NCBI RefSeq assembly: GCF_934309415.1 | Contig: NZ_CAKRDI010000045.1 | Coordinates: 1 to 18,988 of the forward strand | Source of the DNA: an uncultured Mediterraneibacter sp. | GTDB lineage: Bacteria; Bacillota; Clostridia; Lachnospirales; Lachnospiraceae | DNA length: 18,988 nucleotides | Reading direction: 5' to 3' | In this document: positions 2,734 to 11,782 of the stretch, one piece after another | Position numbering within the stretch: position 1 is the stretch's first letter | Layout of the letters: every line of letters begins with the position of its first letter | Position numbers and translations under genes: made by a program | Notes under the pieces: model-generated | What the model was told of the DNA's origin: nothing | Database searches by the model: none | Seen by the model: the letters and a program-made list of their open reading frames with translations, nothing else

Positions 2734-2865
2734 TTGCAGTTTATGCAGAAAAAGTGCAGGTTATGTAAGTGCAGGAGATGGAAAGGAAATCCATGTTAGG
2801 ATATAGATACGAAGTCCGAGAAAGGACAAGAGAATCTAGAATCTTAGAAGAATGGAGAATGTAGA

Positions 2866-3426
2866 ATGAATAAGCTAAACAACATATGGAATCGTTTTGC
2901 CGAGAAACATCCGAGCGCTTCAAAATGGATAAGAGAAGGCGGATTGTTCGTAATCGTAAGTAATCTGATCACTGTACTTAAATATGTGCTGCTGCTGTTT
3001 TTGCCGATGGCATTTGCGGGACTTCCGAACATTGATTTCGGTTTCCCGGGAATCGACATTACATTATTCGGTGAGACATTTAAATGGAACATTATCGGAT
3101 ATGATGCGGCACATGGTGGTCTTCCGTACTTTTGTGCATACATGATTGCAATGCTCGTTGGTGAGTGTATCAACTTCCCAATCCAGAGAAGCTTCGTGTT
3201 CCGCAGCAAAGGAAAGATCTGGTATCAGGCATTCTGGTATCTGATCGCATTCTGTATTGTTACATGTATTGTAAACTCAATCAATTGTATCTGGGTTGCA
3301 GTTGCCGGGATGTTTGTGCCGGGATGGCTTTACAATATCGGAACAACCGTGTTGAACGGAGGAGTGTCGATGGTGGTATTCTTCTTTGTGAATAAGATTA
3401 TTTTCCCGGAGGGAGAAGCGAAATAG
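2866..3426 (+). CDS. GtrA-like small integral membrane protein
   Basis: This membrane protein of 186 residues has about four hydrophobic segments (near 27-50, 85-105, 121-145 and 155-180). The segment CINFPIQRSFVFRS after the second hydrophobic stretch matches the NF...R..VF signature of the GtrA family (PF04138), whose members are implicated in moving lipid-linked sugars across the membrane for cell-surface glycan modification. The ATG at 2866 has a GGAG about 8 bp upstream. It is somewhat longer than typical GtrA proteins (about 120-150 residues), with an amphipathic N-terminal extension and a soluble insert around 55-78. It follows the kinase gene by 165 bp without a clear terminator and may belong to the same transcript. 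The family call is from motifs; the substrate is unknown. Confidence 0.7.
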   Translation: MNKLNNIWNRFAEKHPSASKWIREGGLFVIVSNLITVLKYVLLLFLPMAFAGLPNIDFGFPGIDITLFGETFKWNIIGYDAAHGGLPYFCAYMIAMLVGECINFPIQRSFVFRSKGKIWYQAFWYLIAFCIVTCIVNSINCIWVAVAGMFVPGWLYNIGTTVLNGGVSMVVFFFVNKIIFPEGEAK

Positions 3427-3439
3427 AATAGAGAAAAGA

Positions 3440-3482
3440 AAAACAGGGCAGTGCGCATCAGCGTGCTGTCCTGTTTTCTTTT
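3440..3482 (+). terminator. Rho-independent terminator after the GtrA-like gene
   Basis: A 17-bp stem (3440-3456 with 3461-3477), fully paired if three G-U pairs are counted, closes an ATCA tetraloop. It ends in TTTTCTTTT. It separates the regulatory block from the metal-transport operon. Confidence 0.93.
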
Positions 3483-3488
3483 AACATG

Positions 3489-3563
3489 AAAATCATTTCA
3501 AATTCATCTTGACAATAAAATTTTTTGCGTTAAAATAAAAAATGATTTTTTGATCGATTCGAT
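3489..3563. promoter_or_regulatory. Candidate operator(s) around the metal-operon promoter
   Basis: Two dyads surround the promoter. AAAATCATTT (3489-3498) and AAATGATTTT (3540-3549) are inverted copies that bracket it. ATCGA-T-TCGAT (3553-3563) is a perfect palindrome between the likely start site and the ribosome binding site. Neither matches a Zur, MntR or AdcR box I can recall exactly, so the regulator is unknown. Metal control is inferred from the downstream genes. Confidence 0.35.
3509..3536 (+). promoter_or_regulatory. Sigma-A promoter of the metal-uptake operon
   Basis: A perfect -35 TTGACA (3509-3514) and a -10 TAAAAT (3531-3536) are separated by 16 bp and lie about 45 bp upstream of the first gene's ATG. 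This is the clearest promoter in the window with the one at 16883. Confidence 0.75.
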
Positions 3564-3579
3564 ATGAAAGGAGAAGCAT

Positions 3580-3879
3580 ATGAAGACAAATAAAAAAAGA
3601 TATCTTGCAGCACTTATCTGTGTTCTATTTCTTGTTGTGACACTTGCTTCTTTTTTCTATATTGCGAAAGAGGCAAATCATAAATGTACAGGAGAAGACT
3701 GTCCGATCTGTGCCTGTGTACATCAGGTGGAACAGAACCTGAAGAATCTTGGAACCGGTTTTGCGGCTGATTTCTGTGCCATTTTTTCAGTGCTGTCGAT
3801 AGTTTCAGTGATTTGCTGTCAGACAGAAAATCTTTTTTGTACTTCATTAGTCAGTCAAAAGGTAAGACTAAACAATTGA
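3580..3879 (+). CDS. Small Cys/His-rich membrane protein, first gene of the metal operon
   Basis: This protein of 99 residues has no function I can name. It has a basic N terminus, a hydrophobic segment at about 8-28, then a compact motif with His34, Cys36, Cys41, Cys44, Cys46 and His48 (HKCTGEDCPICACVH), and a second hydrophobic segment at about 62-82. The Cys/His cluster between two membrane spans suggests metal binding on the outer face; an iron-sulfur or disulfide role is also possible. A good AAAGGAG site lies 6 bp before the ATG. It is directly downstream of the operon promoter and 81 bp before the ZnuA-like gene, so it is probably co-regulated with the transporter. I recall similar small proteins beside metal ABC transporters in clostridia, but that is memory, not a search. 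Confidence 0.7.
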   Translation: MKTNKKRYLAALICVLFLVVTLASFFYIAKEANHKCTGEDCPICACVHQVEQNLKNLGTGFAADFCAIFSVLSIVSVICCQTENLFCTSLVSQKVRLNN

Positions 3880-3904
3880 ATAAAACTTTTCAGAAGAAGT
3901 AGTA

Positions 3905-3931
3905 AGAGGTATAAACGTGTACCTCTCTTTT
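3905..3931 (+). promoter_or_regulatory. Hairpin with short T-run between the small ORF and the ZnuA-like gene
   Basis: AGAGGTA (3905-3911) pairs with TACCTCT (3920-3926), and two more pairs extend into the loop, leaving an AACG tetraloop. CTTTT follows (3927-3931). This looks like a weak intrinsic terminator or attenuator that would lower expression of the transporter relative to the first gene. Confidence 0.5.
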
Positions 3932-3960
3932 GTGATGCATAAAAAATGGAGGTTTTATTC

Positions 3961-4965
3961 ATGAAAAAATATATATCAATTCTATTAGTTACAATTATGA
4001 TCATTTTGGGCGTTTCTGCCTGCGGACAAAAGAATTCCGCTAATACCACAACAGAAGTAAAAAAGAGTGATGATTCTAAAATAAAAGTTGTTACAACGAT
4101 TTTCCCGGAATATGACTGGGTGAAATCTATTGTAGGAGAGGACAATTCCAATGTCGAATTGACAATGCTGCTTGATAACGGAGTTGACTTGCACAGCTAT
4201 CAGCCGACAGCAGCGGATATTATGAAAATTTCAGATGGCGATCTGTTTATTTATGTAGGAGGTGAATCGGATTCCTGGGTAGACGGAGCATTAAAAGAGG
4301 CTGTGAATAAGAATATGAAAGTAATTAACCTGTTGGACGTTCTTGGCAATACAGTCAAAGAGGAAGAAGTAAAAGAAGGAATGGAGGCTGAAGAAGAGGA
4401 AGAAGGAGAAGAAAGCGAAGAAGAACCGGAGTATGACGAGCATGTGTGGCTTTCATTAAAAAATGCAAAAGTTTTGTGTAAAGCGATTGCTGATAACTTA
4501 AGTGAGATTGATCCAGAGAACAAAGACGTTTATATTCAAAATGAGAAAGATTATGCAGCAAAACTGGATGCGCTGGATCAGGAGTATCAGACAACCGTGG
4601 ATGCATCAACACAGAAGACATTGCTTTTTGGCGATCGTTTTCCATTCCGGTATCTTGTAGATGACTATGGTTTGGACTATTATGCAGCATTTGTCGGATG
4701 CTCAGCGGAGACAGAAGCAAGTTTCGAGACAATCAAATTTCTATCAGAAAAAGTAGATGAACTTGGACTGAAAAATGTGATGACAATCGAAAAGTCAGAT
4801 CAGAAGATTGCAAAAACAATTATTGAAAATACAAAAGATAAGGATCAGAATATTCTGACATTGGATTCCATGCAGTCGACAACATTTGATGATGTGAAAA
4901 ATGGAACCACTTATCTGTCAGTTATGGAAAAGAATCTGGAAATATTAAAAGAAGCATTACAGTAG
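3961..4965 (+). CDS. znuA: Zinc (or manganese) ABC transporter substrate-binding lipoprotein, ZnuA/AdcA-like
   Basis: This is the extracytoplasmic metal-capture component of a cluster A-I ABC importer, 334 residues. ATG 3961 is preferred over an in-frame ATG at 3946, because the TGGAGG of that earlier codon region is the ribosome binding site. The N terminus is a lipoprotein signal with lipobox VSAC and Cys21 as the anchor. Metal-site landmarks are His in DLHSYQPTAADI and His in DEHVW. The region where family members usually carry a third His reads FGDRFPFRYLVDDYGL, with Asp or Arg rather than His. The usual His-rich mobile loop is replaced by a strongly acidic stretch (about residues 138-162) just before DEHVW. 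The neighbouring ATPase and permease confirm the system. Zinc is the most likely cargo; manganese cannot be excluded. Confidence 0.88.
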   Translation: MKKYISILLVTIMIILGVSACGQKNSANTTTEVKKSDDSKIKVVTTIFPEYDWVKSIVGEDNSNVELTMLLDNGVDLHSYQPTAADIMKISDGDLFIYVGGESDSWVDGALKEAVNKNMKVINLLDVLGNTVKEEEVKEGMEAEEEEEGEESEEEPEYDEHVWLSLKNAKVLCKAIADNLSEIDPENKDVYIQNEKDYAAKLDALDQEYQTTVDASTQKTLLFGDRFPFRYLVDDYGLDYYAAFVGCSAETEASFETIKFLSEKVDELGLKNVMTIEKSDQKIAKTIIENTKDKDQNILTLDSMQSTTFDDVKNGTTYLSVMEKNLEILKEALQ

Positions 4966-4973
4966 GAGGAACT

Positions 4974-5693
4974 ATGGCGCAGTTAATTTGCAAAGATCTG
5001 GCAATTGGATATGAAGGCAAAGCAATCGTGCAGAATATAAATCTTACTGTAAATCAGGGAGACTATCTGTGTGTGATCGGAGAAAATGGAGCAGGAAAAT
5101 CAACGTTGATCAAAACGTTGCTCCATTTAAAACAGCCGGTAAGTGGAGAGATTCAGTTTGAAGATGGAGTAAAATTAAATGAAATCGGATATCTTCCACA
5201 GCAGACAGTCGTTCAAAAAGATTTTCCGGCATCTGTGAAAGAAATTATTCTCTCCGGATGCCAGAACCGTTGTGGTCTTCGCCCATTTTATAATAAAAAA
5301 GAAAAAAAACGGACTCAGGAAATGATGAACAGATTGGGAATAACAGATTTATCAAATTGTTGCTTTAGAGAGCTTTCAGGAGGTCAACAGCAGAGAGTAT
5401 TGTTGGCAAGAGCGTTATGCGCAACGAAAAAAATATTACTTTTGGATGAACCGGTATCTGGTCTTGATCCTAAAGCAACAGAAGAGATGTATCAACAAAT
5501 TCAGTCACTTAATGAAGATGAGAAGATAACAATTATCATGATTTCACACGATATTAAGACTGCGATAGATTATGCAAGTCATATTCTTTATATCGGAGAA
5601 ACATTTTTTTACGGGACGAAACAAGAATTCTTACAAAATCAGATCAGTGAAAAATTTCTGGGGAGAAAAGGAGGAGAAGGATGGATAAATTAG
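4974..5693 (+). CDS. znuC: Zinc/manganese ABC transporter ATP-binding protein
   Basis: This is the cytoplasmic ATPase that powers metal import, 239 residues. All motifs are intact: Walker A GENGAGKST (36-44), Q-loop YLPQQ (73-77), signature LSGGQQQR (134-141), Walker B ILLLDEP (154-160) with catalytic Glu159, D-loop SGLD and switch His192 in ISHD. The ATG follows the upstream gene by 8 bp, with AGGAGG overlapping the previous stop codon. Its last 13 bases overlap the start of the permease gene, so the two are translationally coupled. The FPASVKEII segment after the Q-loop is typical of the ZnuC/MntB subgroup. Confidence 0.93.
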   Translation: MAQLICKDLAIGYEGKAIVQNINLTVNQGDYLCVIGENGAGKSTLIKTLLHLKQPVSGEIQFEDGVKLNEIGYLPQQTVVQKDFPASVKEIILSGCQNRCGLRPFYNKKEKKRTQEMMNRLGITDLSNCCFRELSGGQQQRVLLARALCATKKILLLDEPVSGLDPKATEEMYQQIQSLNEDEKITIIMISHDIKTAIDYASHILYIGETFFYGTKQEFLQNQISEKFLGRKGGEGWIN

Positions 5694-6517
5694 TATTTTA
5701 TTTTCAGTATCCTTTTGTACGGTATGCTATGATTGTCGGAATACTGATCTCATTATGTTCTTCGCTACTTGGAGTGACACTTGTTCTGAAAAGATTTTCA
5801 TTTATTGGAGACGGATTGTCTCATGTGGCGTTTGGAGCGATGGCAGTTGCAGCGGTTTTGAACATTACCCATAATATGTTGTTTATTCTTCTGGTGACAG
5901 TGATATGTGCAATTCTTCTCCTTAGAACAGGACAGAACACAAAAATCAAAGGTGACGCAGCGATAGCAATGATTTCTGTAGGAGCACTTGCAATTGGTTA
6001 TCTTCTGATGAATATTTTTGCAACAGGACCGAATCTTTCCGGTGATGTCTGCAGTACTTTGTTTGGATCGACTTCAATCCTGACACTGAAACTGGAAGAT
6101 GTGCAGTTGTGTGTGGTTCTGTCTATAGTAGTTATTGTTTTATTTATTTTGTTTTATAATAAGATTTTCTGTGTGACCTTTGACGAGACCTTTGCAAAAG
6201 CGACTGGAATTAAAGCAGACCGTTATAATCTTCTGATTGCAGTGATCACAGCGGTGATCATTGTGCTGGCAATGAATCTGGTCGGTTCCTTGTTGATCTC
6301 GGCACTGGTTATATTTCCGGCATTGTCGGCAATGCGTATCTTTAAGACATTTCTCAGTGTGACGGTGTGTTCAGTTATCTTATCTGTTTTCTGTGCGGTT
6401 ACAGGAATGTTATTGTCAATTCTGGCAGGAACTCCTGTAGGATCAACAATTGTGGCAATGGATATTGTGGCATTTCTAGTCTGCTGTATGATCGGGAAAA
6501 TGGCAGGAGGAAAATAG
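5681..6517 (+). CDS. znuB: Zinc/manganese ABC transporter permease (ABC-3 family)
   Basis: This membrane channel subunit has 278 residues and about eight hydrophobic segments, the standard size for the ABC-3 family. The diagnostic region LVLKRFSFIGDGLSHVAFGAMAVA (split here as LVLKRFSFIGDGLSH plus VAFGAMAVA), near residues 34-57, contains the conserved GDGLSH. The cytoplasmic coupling segment is around FDETFAKATGIKA. The start overlaps the end of the ATPase gene and has AGGAGG about 8 bp upstream. The stop codon is 1 bp before the next gene. Together with the two preceding genes it forms a complete importer. Confidence 0.93.
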   Translation: MDKLVFYFQYPFVRYAMIVGILISLCSSLLGVTLVLKRFSFIGDGLSHVAFGAMAVAAVLNITHNMLFILLVTVICAILLLRTGQNTKIKGDAAIAMISVGALAIGYLLMNIFATGPNLSGDVCSTLFGSTSILTLKLEDVQLCVVLSIVVIVLFILFYNKIFCVTFDETFAKATGIKADRYNLLIAVITAVIIVLAMNLVGSLLISALVIFPALSAMRIFKTFLSVTVCSVILSVFCAVTGMLLSILAGTPVGSTIVAMDIVAFLVCCMIGKMAGGK

Positions 6518-6518
6518 T

Positions 6519-6959
6519 ATGAACAGAATGAAGGTATGGTTTGCAGCAGCATTAATGACAGTATGTCTGATCGGATGCGGAAAGTCTGAAAATATTGTGA
6601 AATCCGTCGATTATGATCTTACGGAAATGAACAGTGATATGGTCTACGCAACTGTTTATCAACTGATGATGGATCCGGACAAGTATATTGGAAAAACATT
6701 TAAAATTGATGGTTTGTATTATTCTGGACAAGACGAAAATACAGGTACCGTTTATCATTATTGTGTGATTCAGGATGCGTTAGCGTGTTGTGCCCACGGC
6801 CTGGAGTTTGTTGTAGAAGACAAGGCAGCTTCAGATACAGTGGAGTATCCGGAGGAAGAGACGGAGATTGAAATAAAAGGTACGTTTGAAACTTATAAGG
6901 AATCAGGGGATGACACACTATATTGCAGAATTGCAAATGCTGAAATGAAAATAAAGTAA
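6519..6959 (+). CDS. Small lipoprotein with a Cys-Cys-Ala-His motif, metal operon
   Basis: This 146-residue lipoprotein has a signal peptide ending in LIGC (anchor Cys20). The mature part contains a DPDKYIGKTFKIDGLYY segment (about 52-68) and CVIQDALACCAHGLEF (82-97), with Cys82, Cys90, Cys91 and His93. This layout resembles the C-terminal half of DUF1980/YcgQ-type proteins linked to zinc homeostasis, which also combine a K-x-GK-x-hydrophobic-x-G strand with a CC-A motif. That resemblance is from memory and unverified. The gene begins 1 bp after the permease stop codon and uses an AGGAGG inside the permease gene, so co-expression with ZnuCB is close to certain. A surface metal-binding or metal-delivery role is the natural guess. 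Confidence 0.75.
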   Translation: MNRMKVWFAAALMTVCLIGCGKSENIVKSVDYDLTEMNSDMVYATVYQLMMDPDKYIGKTFKIDGLYYSGQDENTGTVYHYCVIQDALACCAHGLEFVVEDKAASDTVEYPEEETEIEIKGTFETYKESGDDTLYCRIANAEMKIK

Positions 6960-6995
6960 AAAGTAGAGAAGTGAAGAAAAGAGTGAAAACAGACT

Positions 6996-8162
6996 GTGAA
7001 AAATGGTGGAAAATTGATAATTGAATTTATAAAAAAGAGCCGAAAAGGAAAACTATATTGTGTTTTTGGCGTTTTATATCTTCTGGCTATTATATTTGTT
7101 ACAAATGATGCATGGCTGTACAGCACTCCGATTGCAAAACTGACAAAGGTAGAAACCAGTGTGTCAGGAGAAGAGACGGGAACCAGAGGAACGAAGGAGA
7201 AAAAATATAAGCAGAACATCCAGGGAGTGATCCTAAATGGAGAAAACAAGGGAAAGACAATAAGTTTTACGAATGAGTACACGTATACTGGAATGATGAA
7301 ACAGCCATATCATAGAGGAGATAAGGTCCTGCTCAATGGAACAAGCAAGAGAATGGGTTCTGGAATTCGCGGACTGAAACGAGATACAGAGCTTATGATA
7401 CTTGTAGGATTCTTAATGTTTGTATTAATTACCATTGCAGGAAGACAGGGTGCGCTTACGATAGTGACCGTTATTTTCAATGTTGCTGTTTTTGCAATTG
7501 GTTTTTGGAAAGCGGGAGATACATCAAATGTGCTGGAAATGTGCAGCAGGCTGGTGATCCTTTTTGCGGTTATTACATTGGTTGGATTGAATGGGATTCA
7601 TAAAAAGACATGGGCAGCACTTTTTACAACATTGATTGTTCTTGTAATGATCATGGGAATCTTTGATGTTGTAATCCATCATGCAGAAGATCTTGATTAT
7701 TCGACCATGGAGTATCTCGGAAGTATTGATAATCCGGATGAAATTTTCCATGCAGAAATCTTGATTTCAGGATTGGGAGCAATCATGGATGTGGCGGTTG
7801 CCATTGCTGCATCCTTGAGTGAAATTGTTGAAAAGAAGCCGGAAGTGACATTTTTGGAACTATTTAAATCAGGAAGAGAAATTGGATATGACATTATGGG
7901 AACAATGATAAATGTGCTGCTGTTTGTCTTTGGCTGTGGACTGATTCCAATGTGTCTGATTCGAATGAATAATGATGTGAGCTTAATTACTATTATTAAG
8001 CTGCATATTCCATGTGAATTGTGCAGATTCCTGGTTGAAAGTATAGGAATTGTTCTGGCAATACCGATTTCTATTTTGGTTACTTCTGTGATGATGAAGG
8101 CCTCAGGAATGTTTCATAGACAGAAGAAAGCAGGAAAGGTGCAGGGAGAAGGAAAATGCTGA
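6996..8162 (+). CDS. YibE/F-family integral membrane protein (first of a pair)
   Basis: This protein of 388 residues belongs, by overall pattern, to the YibE/F family (PF07907), whose function is not established. An N-terminal membrane span (about 19-38) is followed by an extracytoplasmic beta-rich part (about 45-125) and a polytopic C-terminal half of about seven spans. The ISGLGAIMDVAVAIAASLSEI stretch is typical of the family (ISGLGAIMDVAVAI, then AASLSEI). The start is uncertain: GTG 6996 has no strong ribosome binding site, while TTG 7014 has GGTGGA just upstream; either removes at most six residues. It follows the lipoprotein by 36 bp without a terminator and overlaps the second YibE/F gene by 7 bp, so it belongs to the metal operon transcript. 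Confidence 0.8.
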   Translation: MKNGGKLIIEFIKKSRKGKLYCVFGVLYLLAIIFVTNDAWLYSTPIAKLTKVETSVSGEETGTRGTKEKKYKQNIQGVILNGENKGKTISFTNEYTYTGMMKQPYHRGDKVLLNGTSKRMGSGIRGLKRDTELMILVGFLMFVLITIAGRQGALTIVTVIFNVAVFAIGFWKAGDTSNVLEMCSRLVILFAVITLVGLNGIHKKTWAALFTTLIVLVMIMGIFDVVIHHAEDLDYSTMEYLGSIDNPDEIFHAEILISGLGAIMDVAVAIAASLSEIVEKKPEVTFLELFKSGREIGYDIMGTMINVLLFVFGCGLIPMCLIRMNNDVSLITIIKLHIPCELCRFLVESIGIVLAIPISILVTSVMMKASGMFHRQKKAGKVQGEGKC

Positions 8163-8908
8163 TAACACTTGGATTGATTTTATTGATTTTAATTATGGTC
8201 GTTGGCGGAGACAGAGGCGTCGTTTCGCTTATTGCCCTGTGTGGAAATCTGTTGATCTTAAGTCTTGCAATCTGGCTTATGGCATCAGGAGTTCCTGTTC
8301 TTCTCGTTACGGTTTGCGTTGGTGTTGTCATTTCCTGTATTACGTTGTTCTATCAAAATGGTAGCAATAGAAAGACATGGAGTGCATTTCTGGCTACTAT
8401 GATCACAATGCTGTTGCTGTTTTTCTTTATATATATCGTTGTATGGAGAAGTGAGGCGGGAGGTCTTAACGAGATACAACAGGTTGGAGAAGATGTATTT
8501 TATTATAATATAAACCTGAATATCAGTATGAGAAATGTTGCTGTCTCTGTTATACTTCTCAGTACTCTTGGAGCTGTTCTTGATATGGCACTGACAGTTA
8601 CCACCTCTGTTTATGAAGTGAAAAGCCATAAAGCAGATATGACTTTTAAAGAACTGATTCACAGTGGAATGCAGATAGGAAAGGAAGTGACCGGAACAAC
8701 GGTGAACACACTTCTGTTTGCATATTTAGGTGAATCACTTCTGCTTTTCTCCTATCTGCGTATGCAGGGATATTCGTTTGAACTCCTGCTGAATTCTAAA
8801 ATCATGTTTGAAAACTGTGCCTCAATGATCTTCGGAGCAATCGCCTGTGTGATTGTAATGCCGGTGGCAGCGGTTGTAGGAGGTTATGTCTTCTTTCGAT
8901 TTAAATAA
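8156..8908 (+). CDS. YibE/F-family integral membrane protein (second of a pair)
   Basis: This protein of 250 residues has about seven hydrophobic segments and lacks the soluble N-terminal domain of its partner. The shared segments LSTLGAVLDMALTVTTSVYEV and MTFKELIHSGMQIGKEVTGTTVNTLLFAYLG (quoted here as MTFKELIHSGMQIGKEVTG) align with ISGLGAIMDVAVAIAASLSEI and VTFLELFKSGREIGYDIMG of the upstream protein, so the two are paralogues, probably forming a heteromeric complex. The ATG overlaps the end of the first gene and has GGGAGA upstream, implying translational coupling. It is the last gene of the operon; no clear terminator follows before the fic region. Confidence 0.8.
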   Translation: MLITLGLILLILIMVVGGDRGVVSLIALCGNLLILSLAIWLMASGVPVLLVTVCVGVVISCITLFYQNGSNRKTWSAFLATMITMLLLFFFIYIVVWRSEAGGLNEIQQVGEDVFYYNINLNISMRNVAVSVILLSTLGAVLDMALTVTTSVYEVKSHKADMTFKELIHSGMQIGKEVTGTTVNTLLFAYLGESLLLFSYLRMQGYSFELLLNSKIMFENCASMIFGAIACVIVMPVAAVVGGYVFFRFK

Positions 8909-8914
8909 ATATAA

Positions 8915-9019
8915 AACCCAACATTTAATATAATTCCAACAGCTGTAGACACCGGCTGCGTTCATGTGGAACCCCGCAACAAGTATCAGATCACCGAAAA
9001 CATACAAGATAACACGTAA
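8915..9019 (+). pseudogene. Possible 3' remnant of a lost protein-coding gene
   Basis: An open frame of 34 codons without a start codon reads NPTFNIIPTAVDTGCVHVEP, then RNKYQITENIQDNT and a TAA at 9017-9019. Its amino-acid composition and GC-richer codons look coding, unlike the surrounding A/T-rich DNA. I do not recognise the family. It has no ribosome binding site, and the frame is closed by TAA at 8912-8914. The most likely reading is the decayed 3' end of a gene deleted at this junction. The alternative is chance. Confidence 0.35.
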
Positions 9020-9025
9020 GTTATA
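9003..9025. promoter_or_regulatory. Candidate operator, copy 1, upstream of fic
   Basis: The 23-bp unit contains the dyad ATAAC-N6-GTTAT (9009-9024). It differs from the copy at 9067-9089 at one position. It lies at the expected -35 region of the putative fic promoter. Confidence 0.55.
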
Positions 9026-9046
9026 GTAAAATAAATAAAAACTTAG

Positions 9047-9052
9047 TATAAT
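9047..9052 (+). promoter_or_regulatory. Putative -10 element of the fic promoter
   Basis: A perfect TATAAT lies 53 bp before the fic ATG. No good -35 is found 16-18 bp upstream (the best is a TTATAG-like stretch at 9021-9026, 20 bp away and inside operator copy 1). The promoter is therefore weak or needs an activator, or copy 1 overlaps the -35. Confidence 0.5.
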
Positions 9053-9066
9053 GTAGTAAGAAAACG

Positions 9067-9089
9067 TACAAGATAACAAGTAAGTTATA
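9067..9089. promoter_or_regulatory. Candidate operator, copy 2, at the fic ribosome binding site
   Basis: This is the second copy of the 23-bp unit, with the dyad ATAAC-N6-GTTAT (9073-9088). It starts 64 bp after copy 1, about six helical turns. It lies between the likely transcription start and the GAGAGGG ribosome binding site (9091-9097), a repressing position. Confidence 0.55.
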
Positions 9090-9104
9090 TGAGAGGGAAA
9101 TGAT

Positions 9105-10097
9105 ATGAATACTTATACACCACCATTCAAGCTTACGAATACGATGCTAGATCTAGTCGCATCGATTTCTGAAAAAGTAGGAAGAATCACTACAGGAAAA
9201 AATCTGGAGTCAAAGCCACATTTGAGGAAAAATAACAGAGTTAAATCAATCTATTCTTCTTTGAAAATCGAGGCAAATTCATTGACAATCGGACAGGTAA
9301 GAGATGTCATAGATGGAAGGCTTGTACTTGGAGAACAAAAAGAAATACAAGAAGTAAAGAATGCATACGAAGCATATGAGAAAATAAATAAGATTGATCC
9401 ATATGATATTGAAGAATTAAAGCATATGCATGGGATTATGACAAAGTATCTGGTAGATGAATCAGGATGTTTCAGACATGGAGAAGAGGGTGTTTTCGAT
9501 GGAGAGAAATGCATCTTCATGACACCGCCGGCAAGATTCGTCCCACATCTTATGGAGGAACTGTTTGATTGGATGGAACGAGAAAAGGAAGAAGTTCATC
9601 CATTGATCCTGTCCTGTGTATTTCATTATGAATTCGTATTTATTCATCCATTCGCAGATGGGAATGGACGTATGGCAAGGCTGTGGCATACTTGTCTTTT
9701 AGCAAAGTGGAAGCCTTTCTTTCAATACATTCCAATAGAAAGTCAGATTGAGAGATTCCAGGAAGAATATTACAATGTGATCGCACAATGTCATGTAAAT
9801 GGTGATTCAAATCTATTTATCGAATTTATGTTGCACCAGATTGATCAGATTTTAAAAGAAGTTCTGTTACAATCGGAGGGACAAAGGGAAGACATATCAG
9901 AATATGTAAAACGATTATTAGATGTTATGGAATACGAAGTTCCGTACACCGCAGTTACTTTGATGGAGTTGCTGGGGCTAAAGTCAAAGGAATCATTTCG
10001 AAAGAATTATCTGAATCCGGCAATAGAACTTCAATTGATACGAATGACAGTTCCTGACAAGCCACGTAGCAGAAATCAGAGATATGTGAAAAGATAG
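9105..10097 (+). CDS. Fic family protein (AMP-transferase type) with N-terminal inhibitory motif and C-terminal winged helix
   Basis: Fic enzymes transfer AMP, or sometimes another nucleotide moiety, from a nucleotide onto a hydroxyl side chain of a target protein. The 330-residue protein has the catalytic motif HPFADGNGRMAR at 181-192 with all active-site residues (His181, Asp185, Asn187, Arg189, Arg192). The N-terminal segment YSSLKIEANSLTIGQV (50-65) corresponds to the autoinhibitory helix of class II Fic proteins, whose motif is (S/T)xxxE(G/N); here Ser52 and Glu56 are present but the following residue is Ala57. The C-terminal 65 residues look like a winged-helix DNA-binding domain. The start ATG has GAGAGGG 7 bp upstream. 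Two dyads around the -10 suggest autoregulation, perhaps through its own winged helix. The target is unknown. Confidence 0.92.
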   Translation: MNTYTPPFKLTNTMLDLVASISEKVGRITTGKNLESKPHLRKNNRVKSIYSSLKIEANSLTIGQVRDVIDGRLVLGEQKEIQEVKNAYEAYEKINKIDPYDIEELKHMHGIMTKYLVDESGCFRHGEEGVFDGEKCIFMTPPARFVPHLMEELFDWMEREKEEVHPLILSCVFHYEFVFIHPFADGNGRMARLWHTCLLAKWKPFFQYIPIESQIERFQEEYYNVIAQCHVNGDSNLFIEFMLHQIDQILKEVLLQSEGQREDISEYVKRLLDVMEYEVPYTAVTLMELLGLKSKESFRKNYLNPAIELQLIRMTVPDKPRSRNQRYVKR

Positions 10098-10199
10098 ATG
10101 TTGCTGGGCAAATAAACTGAAGATAGAATTCTATGAAGAAATCGATTATACTAAAAAGAAAGAAATTAAATGAAAATATGCGAGGAGGTGACAGCACAG

Positions 10200-11782
10200 A
10201 TGGGAAGTTATCTGAATCCGGGAAACAGCGGTTTTTCGAATATGAGAAATGATGTTTATGTCGATAAAACAGAAATGATAAGTCTGATTAATCAAACAAT
10301 CAATACGCCACGGAATCTGACATGTATCAGCAGACCACGGCGTTTTGGGAAATCTTTTGCTGCCAAAATGTTGTGTGCATATTATGATAAGACTTGTGAT
10401 TCCAGGGAATTGTTTCATGATCTTAGAATTGCAAAAGATGATGAATATTCAAAATATCTGAATCAGTATGATGTGATCTATCTGGATATGGCGAGTGTTC
10501 TTGGTGTGACATTACCGGAAGATGCAGTCTCCTATGTGAAACGAAATATAACAGAAGAAGTTTTAGATATTTATCCGGAAGTGAAAGAAGCAGAAGAACT
10601 ATTTGATACGTTGGCGAATCTGGTGACTTATACAGGAAATAAAATCATTATGATTATCGATGAGTGGGATGCACCGATTCGTGAGAATGGTGGAAATGAA
10701 AAAATCCAGAGAGAGTATCTATTATTTTTACGGTCATTATTTAAAAATAGTGGAACAACGGATAAGATTTTCGCAGCAGTATATATGACAGGAATCCTGC
10801 CAATCAAAAAGACGGTTCACAGTCTGCAATTTCTGATTTCGAAGAATTTACAATGGTAAAACCAAGAAAGTTTGCGCCATATGTAGGTTTTACAGAACAG
10901 GAAGTAAAGGATTTGTGTAGCGAATATCAAATAGATTTTTCAAAGATGAAGTTATGGTATGATGGATATTCATTCCCAAACGCAAAATCAATTTATAATC
11001 CAAACTCTGTAATGAAAGCACTTAGAAATGATGATTTCGATTCCTACTGGACACAGACATCGGCAGCAGAGAGTTTAATGGAATATATTAGTCTTGATTA
11101 TGACGGACTTCCCAAGACGATCGCTGAACTGATCGGTGGTATTGAAGTAGAAGTTGATACAAGTGGATTTTCGAACGACCTTGTGACTTTCAGAGAGAAA
11201 GATGATGTACTGACATTGTTGATTCATCTGGGATATCTGGCTTATGATAAAGAAACGGAAAAAGTGCATATTCCAAATGAAGAAATCAAGCGGGAATTTT
11301 CAAGGACGATCAGGGGAGTCAGACGGAACGAGACAATTCAGCGTGTACGTGAAAGCGACCAGATCATCTCGGATACGGTACATATGAATGCGGATGCAGT
11401 AGCAGCACAGATTGAGAAGATCCATACAGAGGAGACAACGGCTCTTTTCTATAATAATGAGCAGGCATTACGAAGTGTGATCAAGCTGGCATATTTTAGT
11501 TATCGCGATTATTATCTGAAATTTGAAGAACTTCCGTCAGGAAATGGTTATGCAGATATTGTATATTTTCCAAAGAAAACATCGAATCTTCCGGCATTAG
11601 TAGTTGAAATGAAGTGGGACAAATCAGCAGAAGGAGCGATTACACAGATTAAGAAACGGAACTACCCGGCGGAAATCAAAGATTTTGGTGGTGAGATTCT
11701 GCTGGTTGGAATTAATTATGATAAAGATGCTCCGGTGGGTGAACGGAAGCATACGTGTGTGATAGAAAAATATCAAGTGTGA
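10200..11782 (+). pseudogene. AAA-ATPase-like / PD-(D/E)XK nuclease-domain protein, split by a single-base frameshift
   Basis: The protein would have about 527 residues from ATG 10200, chosen because AGGAGGTG lies 9 bp upstream (an in-frame ATG at 10170 lacks one). The first part, 10200-10859, has the P-loop-like SRPRRFGKS and the Walker B-like IIMIIDEWDAP of the AAA-ATPase_like family (PF09820). The second part, in another frame to 11782, continues with the family's MVKPRKFAPYVGFTEQEV segment and ends in a PD-(D/E)XK domain (PF08011), with Asp in GYADIVY and Glu-x-Lys in VVEMKW. Reading gac at 10811 instead of acg restores KKDGSQSAISDFEEFTMVKP without a gap, so one base is missing in or next to the A-run 10806-10810. 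The cause could be mutation, sequencing error or -1 slippage on AAA-AAG. The family's role is unknown; its members are often multicopy. Confidence 0.85.

Follow-up and report, generated by a model that had tools for sequence, protein, structure and literature searches.

The stretch of DNA considered here, 18,988 nucleotides of contig NZ_CAKRDI010000045.1 from an uncultured Mediterraneibacter sp. (hereafter the window), carries seven genes on one strand in which a ZnuABC-type metal importer is accompanied by a Cys/His membrane peptide, a small OB-fold lipoprotein and two proteins of the YibE/F family, YibE1 and YibE2. With moderate confidence we read this cluster as a zinc-uptake operon under FUR/Zur control, furnished with extracytoplasmic zinc-handling helpers and, as an addition of its lineage, with a YibE/F pair that is possibly RND/SecDF-like and would serve extracytoplasmic metalloproteins. 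The proposal is built on the gene content, conservation and linkage of the cluster, on an operator-like palindrome common to its relatives, on one fusion to ZnuA and on the neighbours of YibE elsewhere; co-transcription, and every functional step ascribed to YibE/F, we infer. An earlier reading of the letters without database searches (the sequence-only reading) had described seven open reading frames, and all were present at the coordinates it gave, on one strand and with a single good promoter candidate in front. Its suggestion that the four accessory genes make up a single undescribed system was too strong: the two small proteins are regular members, and the YibE/F pair is rare. A literature search, with subscription journals mostly outside its coverage, returned no paper on the function of YibE/F or on the present operon.

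Two small proteins in the znu operon

ZnuA, the ABC-3 permease and the ABC ATPase all score over their Pfam cut-offs within one operon and identify a metal ABC importer of the ZnuABC type. In its relatives, the peptide and the lipoprotein are regular parts of the znu operon. An alignment search of species genomes gave 376 relatives of the lipoprotein, and the best 80 of these loci held znuA in 60 cases, a znuC-like ATPase in 68, znuB in 67 and the peptide in 39. Several contigs end within the operon, which accounts for part of the absences. The peptide, sought independently, was present in 57 of 397 related genomes, from which 40 loci were taken, starting near the top of the list and passing over some: znuA stood directly next to it in all 40, and the lipoprotein lay downstream in 30. 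Among the relatives (L-numbers denote their loci, P-numbers homologous proteins), the lipoprotein follows znuA directly, with no znuBC between, in L062, L204, L219 and L052/L054, the last being a pair of contigs from a single genome that carry identical genes, and likewise, as fragments, in L144 and L197. In one genome (L076) its domain makes up the C-terminal portion of a ZnuA protein 467 residues long. The linkage of two candidate metal-binding small proteins to znu genes, which the sequence-only reading had put forward, was therefore borne out in many relatives as well as by this fusion.

Homologues numbered 810 for the lipoprotein and 138 for the peptide, 120 of each being listed. In the peptide, the motif HxCxGxDCPxC lies between two hydrophobic stretches, and a K-x-R close to the C-terminus is conserved; Y27, E31, H34, C36, G38, D40, C41, P42, C44, K94 and R96 are invariant across 26 chosen sequences. 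The N-terminus of the peptide is basic, and the Cys/His loop is therefore predicted to face outward; the peptide may have a role in sensing or delivery. Ten locus pairs were compared codon by codon for the ratio of nonsynonymous to synonymous change (dN/dS), pairs with saturated or no synonymous change yielding no ratio. The peptide gave 0.13-0.38 in 7 pairs with a value and, as an exception, 0.70 in one further, hardly diverged pair, and the lipoprotein gave 0.04-0.14 in 5, values that indicate purifying selection on both wherever the synonymous distance is usable. That the peptide is a leader or a non-coding stretch was dropped on this comparison.

In the lipoprotein, D86, A87, A89, C90, C91 and G94 are among the residues invariant across 21 chosen sequences. 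Its sole Pfam match, DUF1980_C (PF21537), stayed below the cut-off at 18.0 against 25.9 bits, as did TIGR03943 at 17.5 against 88.8 bits, and a Foldseek search returned generic OB folds, with no match at E < 0.001; it is likely a distant relative of DUF1980_C. At L416 (889-1866), a CobW-type GTPase is joined to a DUF1980_C domain, and the znu-lipoprotein operon is present in that genome too. An acidic linker of ~50 residues behind the lipid anchor, found in relatives such as P0002, is missing from the window's protein.

Promoter and operator candidates

The promoter candidate before the peptide was the top of 18 promoter-like sites in 2800-9200, where shuffled sequences gave 20.7; as the number of sites does not exceed that in shuffles, only its quality and its place count, and it is suggestive at most. 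The scan found no forward-strand candidate in 5572-7065, and hence none directly 5' of yibE1.

More was gained from the starts of 76 operons, those of the relatives and of the window together. The palindrome TGAAAATNATTTTCA, a consensus chosen by visual inspection of the window, L017 and L067, was present with up to two mismatches at 26 of the 76 starts, against 0.4 in mononucleotide shuffles, and seven copies were perfect, against 0.0; near-duplicates (L003/L004 and L010/L011/L193) make the effective number of starts smaller than 76. A Fur-type pattern, at two mismatches, was also in excess in these starts (9 against 0.3 expected), and a B. subtilis-type Zur box, tried as the operator, was not enriched before them. 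Within the window alone, TGAAAATNATTTTCA at up to two mismatches showed no excess (6 matches, 5.0 expected). A FUR-family gene stands directly upstream in 14 of the 40 peptide loci, and Pfam confirmed all four fur genes tested (L013, L144, L145, L204); unlike many relatives, the window has no fur gene adjoining the peptide. A FUR-family gene together with a common operator, as would befit a Zur/FUR regulon, is thus found in the relatives, and the window has a two-mismatch site only.

The YibE/F pair and its neighbours

YibE1 and YibE2 are full members of YibE_F (PF07907), at 206.3 and 202.3 bits against a cut-off of 27.2, and YibE1 carries a stretch of ~130 residues ahead of the domain. Relatives of YibE2 occurred in 105 of 397 genomes of the family and in 128 of 398 of the phylum (Bacillota), and 100 YibE loci, 40 from the former and 60 from the latter, were read, mostly from the top of the lists. 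In 11 of the 100, a FUR-family gene lay no more than three genes away from YibE. In six the FUR gene was directly upstream on the same strand, overlapping or within ~20 bases, where chance would place ~0.1 in 100 upstream places (163 FUR matches in 61 genomes, or 2.7 per genome, with 2500 genes assumed); the YibE proteins of these six loci are 41-77% identical to one another, and by shared ancestry the cases are not independent.

A domain scan covered 66 neighbours, of which 63 were upstream proteins encoded on the same strand and three were chosen by hand; long sequences were trimmed to 650 residues. It found alkaline phosphatase in 8, FUR in 6, Metallophos in 5, of which at least one (L235) was a hand-added neighbour, purple acid phosphatase in 4 and 5'-nucleotidase in 2. 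In eight loci (L243, L247, L256, L267, L270, L271, L277, L278), an alkaline phosphatase gene stood directly 5' of a lone YibE gene. Iron genes appear as well: L253 reads yibE-fur-feoB-feoA, followed by suf-like genes, with related orders in L245 and L264 (FeoB and FeoA were Pfam-confirmed on L274 and L251, the remaining gene names being read by eye), and in L234 a siderophore-type ABC operon, again read by eye, lies upstream of YibE. The recurrence of FUR regulators, metal importers and secreted metallophosphatases suggests that YibE/F may take part in the supply of metal to extracytoplasmic metalloproteins, or in their folding, which fits this company better than any single substrate would; it is the least certain of our conclusions. 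A Staphylococcus aureus transposon screen is reported to place the YibE/F pair among the genes with a strong loss of fitness in human blood (log2 fold changes -4.64 and -4.40), and znuB, znuC and mntABC are named in that study too (PMC13227979).

Two further observations concern the family at large. In 15 Lachnospiraceae-type loci (L129, L130, L131, L132, L136, L140 and others), a lone YibE gene adjoins a large protein that looks secreted; some of these proteins have metallophosphatase domains and many are without assignment. L261 (5332-7914) holds two nearly identical YibE genes in tandem.

Several results weigh against the proposal. YibE/F was found in none of the 80 lipoprotein loci, even by broader YibE models, and in none of the 40 peptide loci; most of the 100 YibE loci had no recognised metal gene, and only two had znu genes beside the pair. 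The pair closest to the window's (L143, YibE2 78% identical) stands without znu genes. To these must be added that none of the importer proteins reached a zinc-model cut-off, that metal binding by the peptide and the lipoprotein is itself a prediction, that the YibE2 model is of low confidence, and that the profile likeness of YibE to RND proteins, taken up below, is weak. A regular place of the pair in the operon is therefore not supported, and the expectation of the sequence-only reading, YibE/F beside metal genes, held in part: FUR-family genes and other metal-linked neighbours recur in other Bacillota, znu genes hardly. Of the 35 genomes with a znu-lipoprotein cluster, 8 had any YibE_F match, 7 of them over the cut-off; Lactococcus lactis, scanned as a control, carries PF07907. 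Homologues on contigs of equal length, 122131 bases for lipoprotein P0002 and YibE2 P0249 and 13015 bases for peptide P0122 and YibE2 P0257, are a hint that the linkage persists in close relatives.

The two znu-linked loci differ. In L145 the order is fur-znuA-znuC-znuB-yibE1-yibE2, its ZnuA is divergent and both small proteins are missing; L144 (7943-11044) is a decayed relative of the window's operon, in which fur and the peptide are present, the znu genes and the lipoprotein are fragmentary and a stop interrupts the YibE2 frame. From their rarity, and from the solitary pair of L143, it follows that the association of YibE/F with znu is young or often lost. The same counts would suit a pair that is a mere hitch-hiker behind the znu operon of one small clade, with no part in zinc, the five upstream genes being the working zinc operon. 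We consider this unlikely, if a possibility to be taken seriously, in view of L145, an independent fur-znu-yibE1-yibE2 operon, of the recurring FUR, feo and metallophosphatase neighbours, and of the overlap of yibE1 with yibE2 and the lack of a forward-strand promoter candidate in 5572-7065.

A second alternative takes its cue from the phosphatase-type domains counted above: YibE/F would serve phosphate, not metal, acting with phosphate uptake and with phosphatases that are secreted, and would lie downstream of znu only by accident. A Na/Pi cotransporter-like gene does lie two genes upstream of YibE in 6 loci (Pfam-confirmed in L288), in the order Na/Pi cotransporter-like gene, FUR gene, YibE in L242, L248, L285, L288 and L290. 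Yet FUR regulators are directly upstream in six loci, which tend to be those with Na/Pi as the second upstream gene, so that one signal is not independent of the other; YibE also has feo and znu genes among its neighbours, and such phosphatases are themselves metalloenzymes. A role in phosphate appears distinctly improbable to us.

As to what the pair might be, it is a tentative suggestion, and one we hold with considerable doubt, that YibE/F constitutes an unrecognised branch of the RND/SecDF proteins with two subunits, each gene encoding a half of six helices, and that it powers the loading with metal, the export or the folding of extracytoplasmic metalloproteins. Copies would be placed beside phosphatases and iron/zinc systems by FUR-family regulators, and here one copy would have been recruited to an operon for zinc starvation, alongside two new proteins that handle zinc extracytoplasmically. 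All 50 structural matches listed for the YibE2 model (m8b7b342bea44) were RND-superfamily transmembrane domains (MmpL3, SecDF, AcrB), the model itself being of low confidence (predicted local distance difference test 66). YibE also has an invariant G-x3-D-x10-E, a motif that occurs in SecD as well. Pfam RND models (ACR_tran, MMPL, SecD_SecF) matched neither YibE1 nor YibE2 at E up to 10. Profile comparison, negative at first with shallow profiles, gave a weak signal only with deeper ones: short YibE against pooled RND scored 23.8% (P 8.4e-4), all YibE 2.2% and long YibE 1.5%, where true RND pairs score 92-99%; ten other membrane families as controls gave P >= 0.079 and reversed profiles P >= 0.02. 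Global-mode hhalign reached P 7.9e-4 to 4e-3 against one set of RND proteins, but through end overhangs and with the motif out of register, and was discarded. Searched against sequences of the PDB, the YibE2 profile hit a single entry, an ABC transporter (E 1.9), taken to be a chance match.

Layout, metal and known systems

The coordinates are collected in Table 1. From znuA onward the genes are separated by a gap of 8, an overlap of 13, gaps of 1 and 36 and an overlap of 7 bases, and 66 bases lie between peptide and znuA. This interval holds a terminator-like hairpin (3905-3926) with a short T-rich tail, which could separate the levels of peptide and importer. Upstream of the peptide, Pfam recognised a GtrA-type gene, itself preceded by a LytTR response regulator adjoining a GHKL-type sensor kinase (671-2700); further downstream, AAA-ATPase_like and PDDEXK_9, expected in a single gene, are split over overlapping reading frames (10170-10859 and 10853-11782). 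An Rfam scan of the window had no match.

Table 1. Features of the znu-yibE cluster in the window.
Feature	Position	Strand	Remarks
Fur-family-type operator candidate TGAAAATCATTTCAA	3487..3501	+	two mismatches to TGAAAATNATTTTCA; ends seven bases before the -35
Sigma-70-type promoter candidate TTGACA-16-TAAAAT	3509..3536	+	11/12 positions; precedes peptide
Cys/His membrane peptide	3580..3879	+	99-residue open reading frame; no Pfam family
ZnuA-type metal-binding lipoprotein	3946..4965	+	PF01297, 3.5e-69
ZnuC-type ABC ATPase	4974..5693	+	PF00005 (ABC_tran), 5.9e-30; top NCBIfam match AztA, below cut-off
ZnuB-type ABC-3 permease	5681..6517	+	PF00950, 2.6e-49
OB-fold lipoprotein with DAxACC motif	6519..6959	+	distant DUF1980_C relative; Pfam match below threshold
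YibE1	6996..8162	+	GTG start; PF07907, 6.7e-61, residues 133-364
YibE2	8156..8908	+	PF07907, 1.1e-59; domain only

The top NCBIfam match of each importer protein was a zinc family (AdcA, AztA, AztB), but none of the zinc models (AdcA, AztA, AztB, AztC, ZnuA/B/C) was over its cut-off, the best scores being 138 of 700, 164 of 220 and 118 of 280 bits, so that zinc, rather than manganese, is a substrate that we infer. An importer of manganese or of several metals, with accessory genes serving that metal, is very doubtful: the manganese families MntC and MntA likewise score well against ZnuA and the ATPase, and no zinc cut-off is reached, but the best matches are to zinc families, the partner proteins are Cys-rich and L416 joins DUF1980_C to CobW, a zinc chaperone.

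In the zinc-uptake reading that we prefer, a FUR-family repressor, probably Zur, would control a zinc-scavenging operon in which ZnuA captures extracellular zinc for import by ZnuB and ZnuC. The OB-fold lipoprotein would be a lipid-anchored partner of ZnuA, binding zinc or relaying it to ZnuA via its CC motif, and the peptide, sitting next to the importer, would expose a Cys/His site to the outside. The YibE/F pair, added in this lineage and probably transcribed together with the importer genes, would most likely be a two-part RND/SecDF-like membrane device for metal loading, export or folding of extracytoplasmic metal-binding proteins, a service suggested by its neighbours in other Bacillota. 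If so, the peptide and the OB lipoprotein, two families without a function, can be given a definite position, open to test, in the zinc uptake of Lachnospiraceae and their relatives. For YibE/F, widespread in Bacillota, its neighbours together with the RND-like model allow a part in supplying metal outside the cytoplasm to be tested.

Set beside known systems, the pair conforms to the YibE_F family (transporter class 9.B.141; six transmembrane segments according to PMC3924187) in its long and short genes, a combination seen in some two dozen of the loci read, and differs in following a znu operon. It resembles the RND superfamily and SecDF in predicted helix arrangement, in G-x3-D-x10-E and in paired subunits (SecD and SecF), and departs from them in the missing Pfam match, the weak profile match and the small size of the N-terminal domain of YibE1. 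The lipoprotein is like DUF1980_C/TIGR03943 proteins of the YcgQ type in its profile across the OB core, where the CC motifs align, but falls below both curated cut-offs and is a separate lipoprotein without the DUF1980 membrane part; ScfAB, homologues of YcgR/YcgQ, are reported to be of unknown function (PMC5584981). With ZnuABC and AdcABC importers that have accessory zinc carriers, the cluster shares an ABC importer with a metal-binding lipoprotein, and a further extracytoplasmic protein that adjoins the binding protein or is fused to it. ZinT and the extra domain of AdcA are such accessory carriers. Zinc transfer between Pht and AdcAII offers a comparison (PMC3842936). In the present operon, the accessory protein is an OB-fold lipoprotein with a CC motif, and a two-segment Cys/His peptide precedes znuA.

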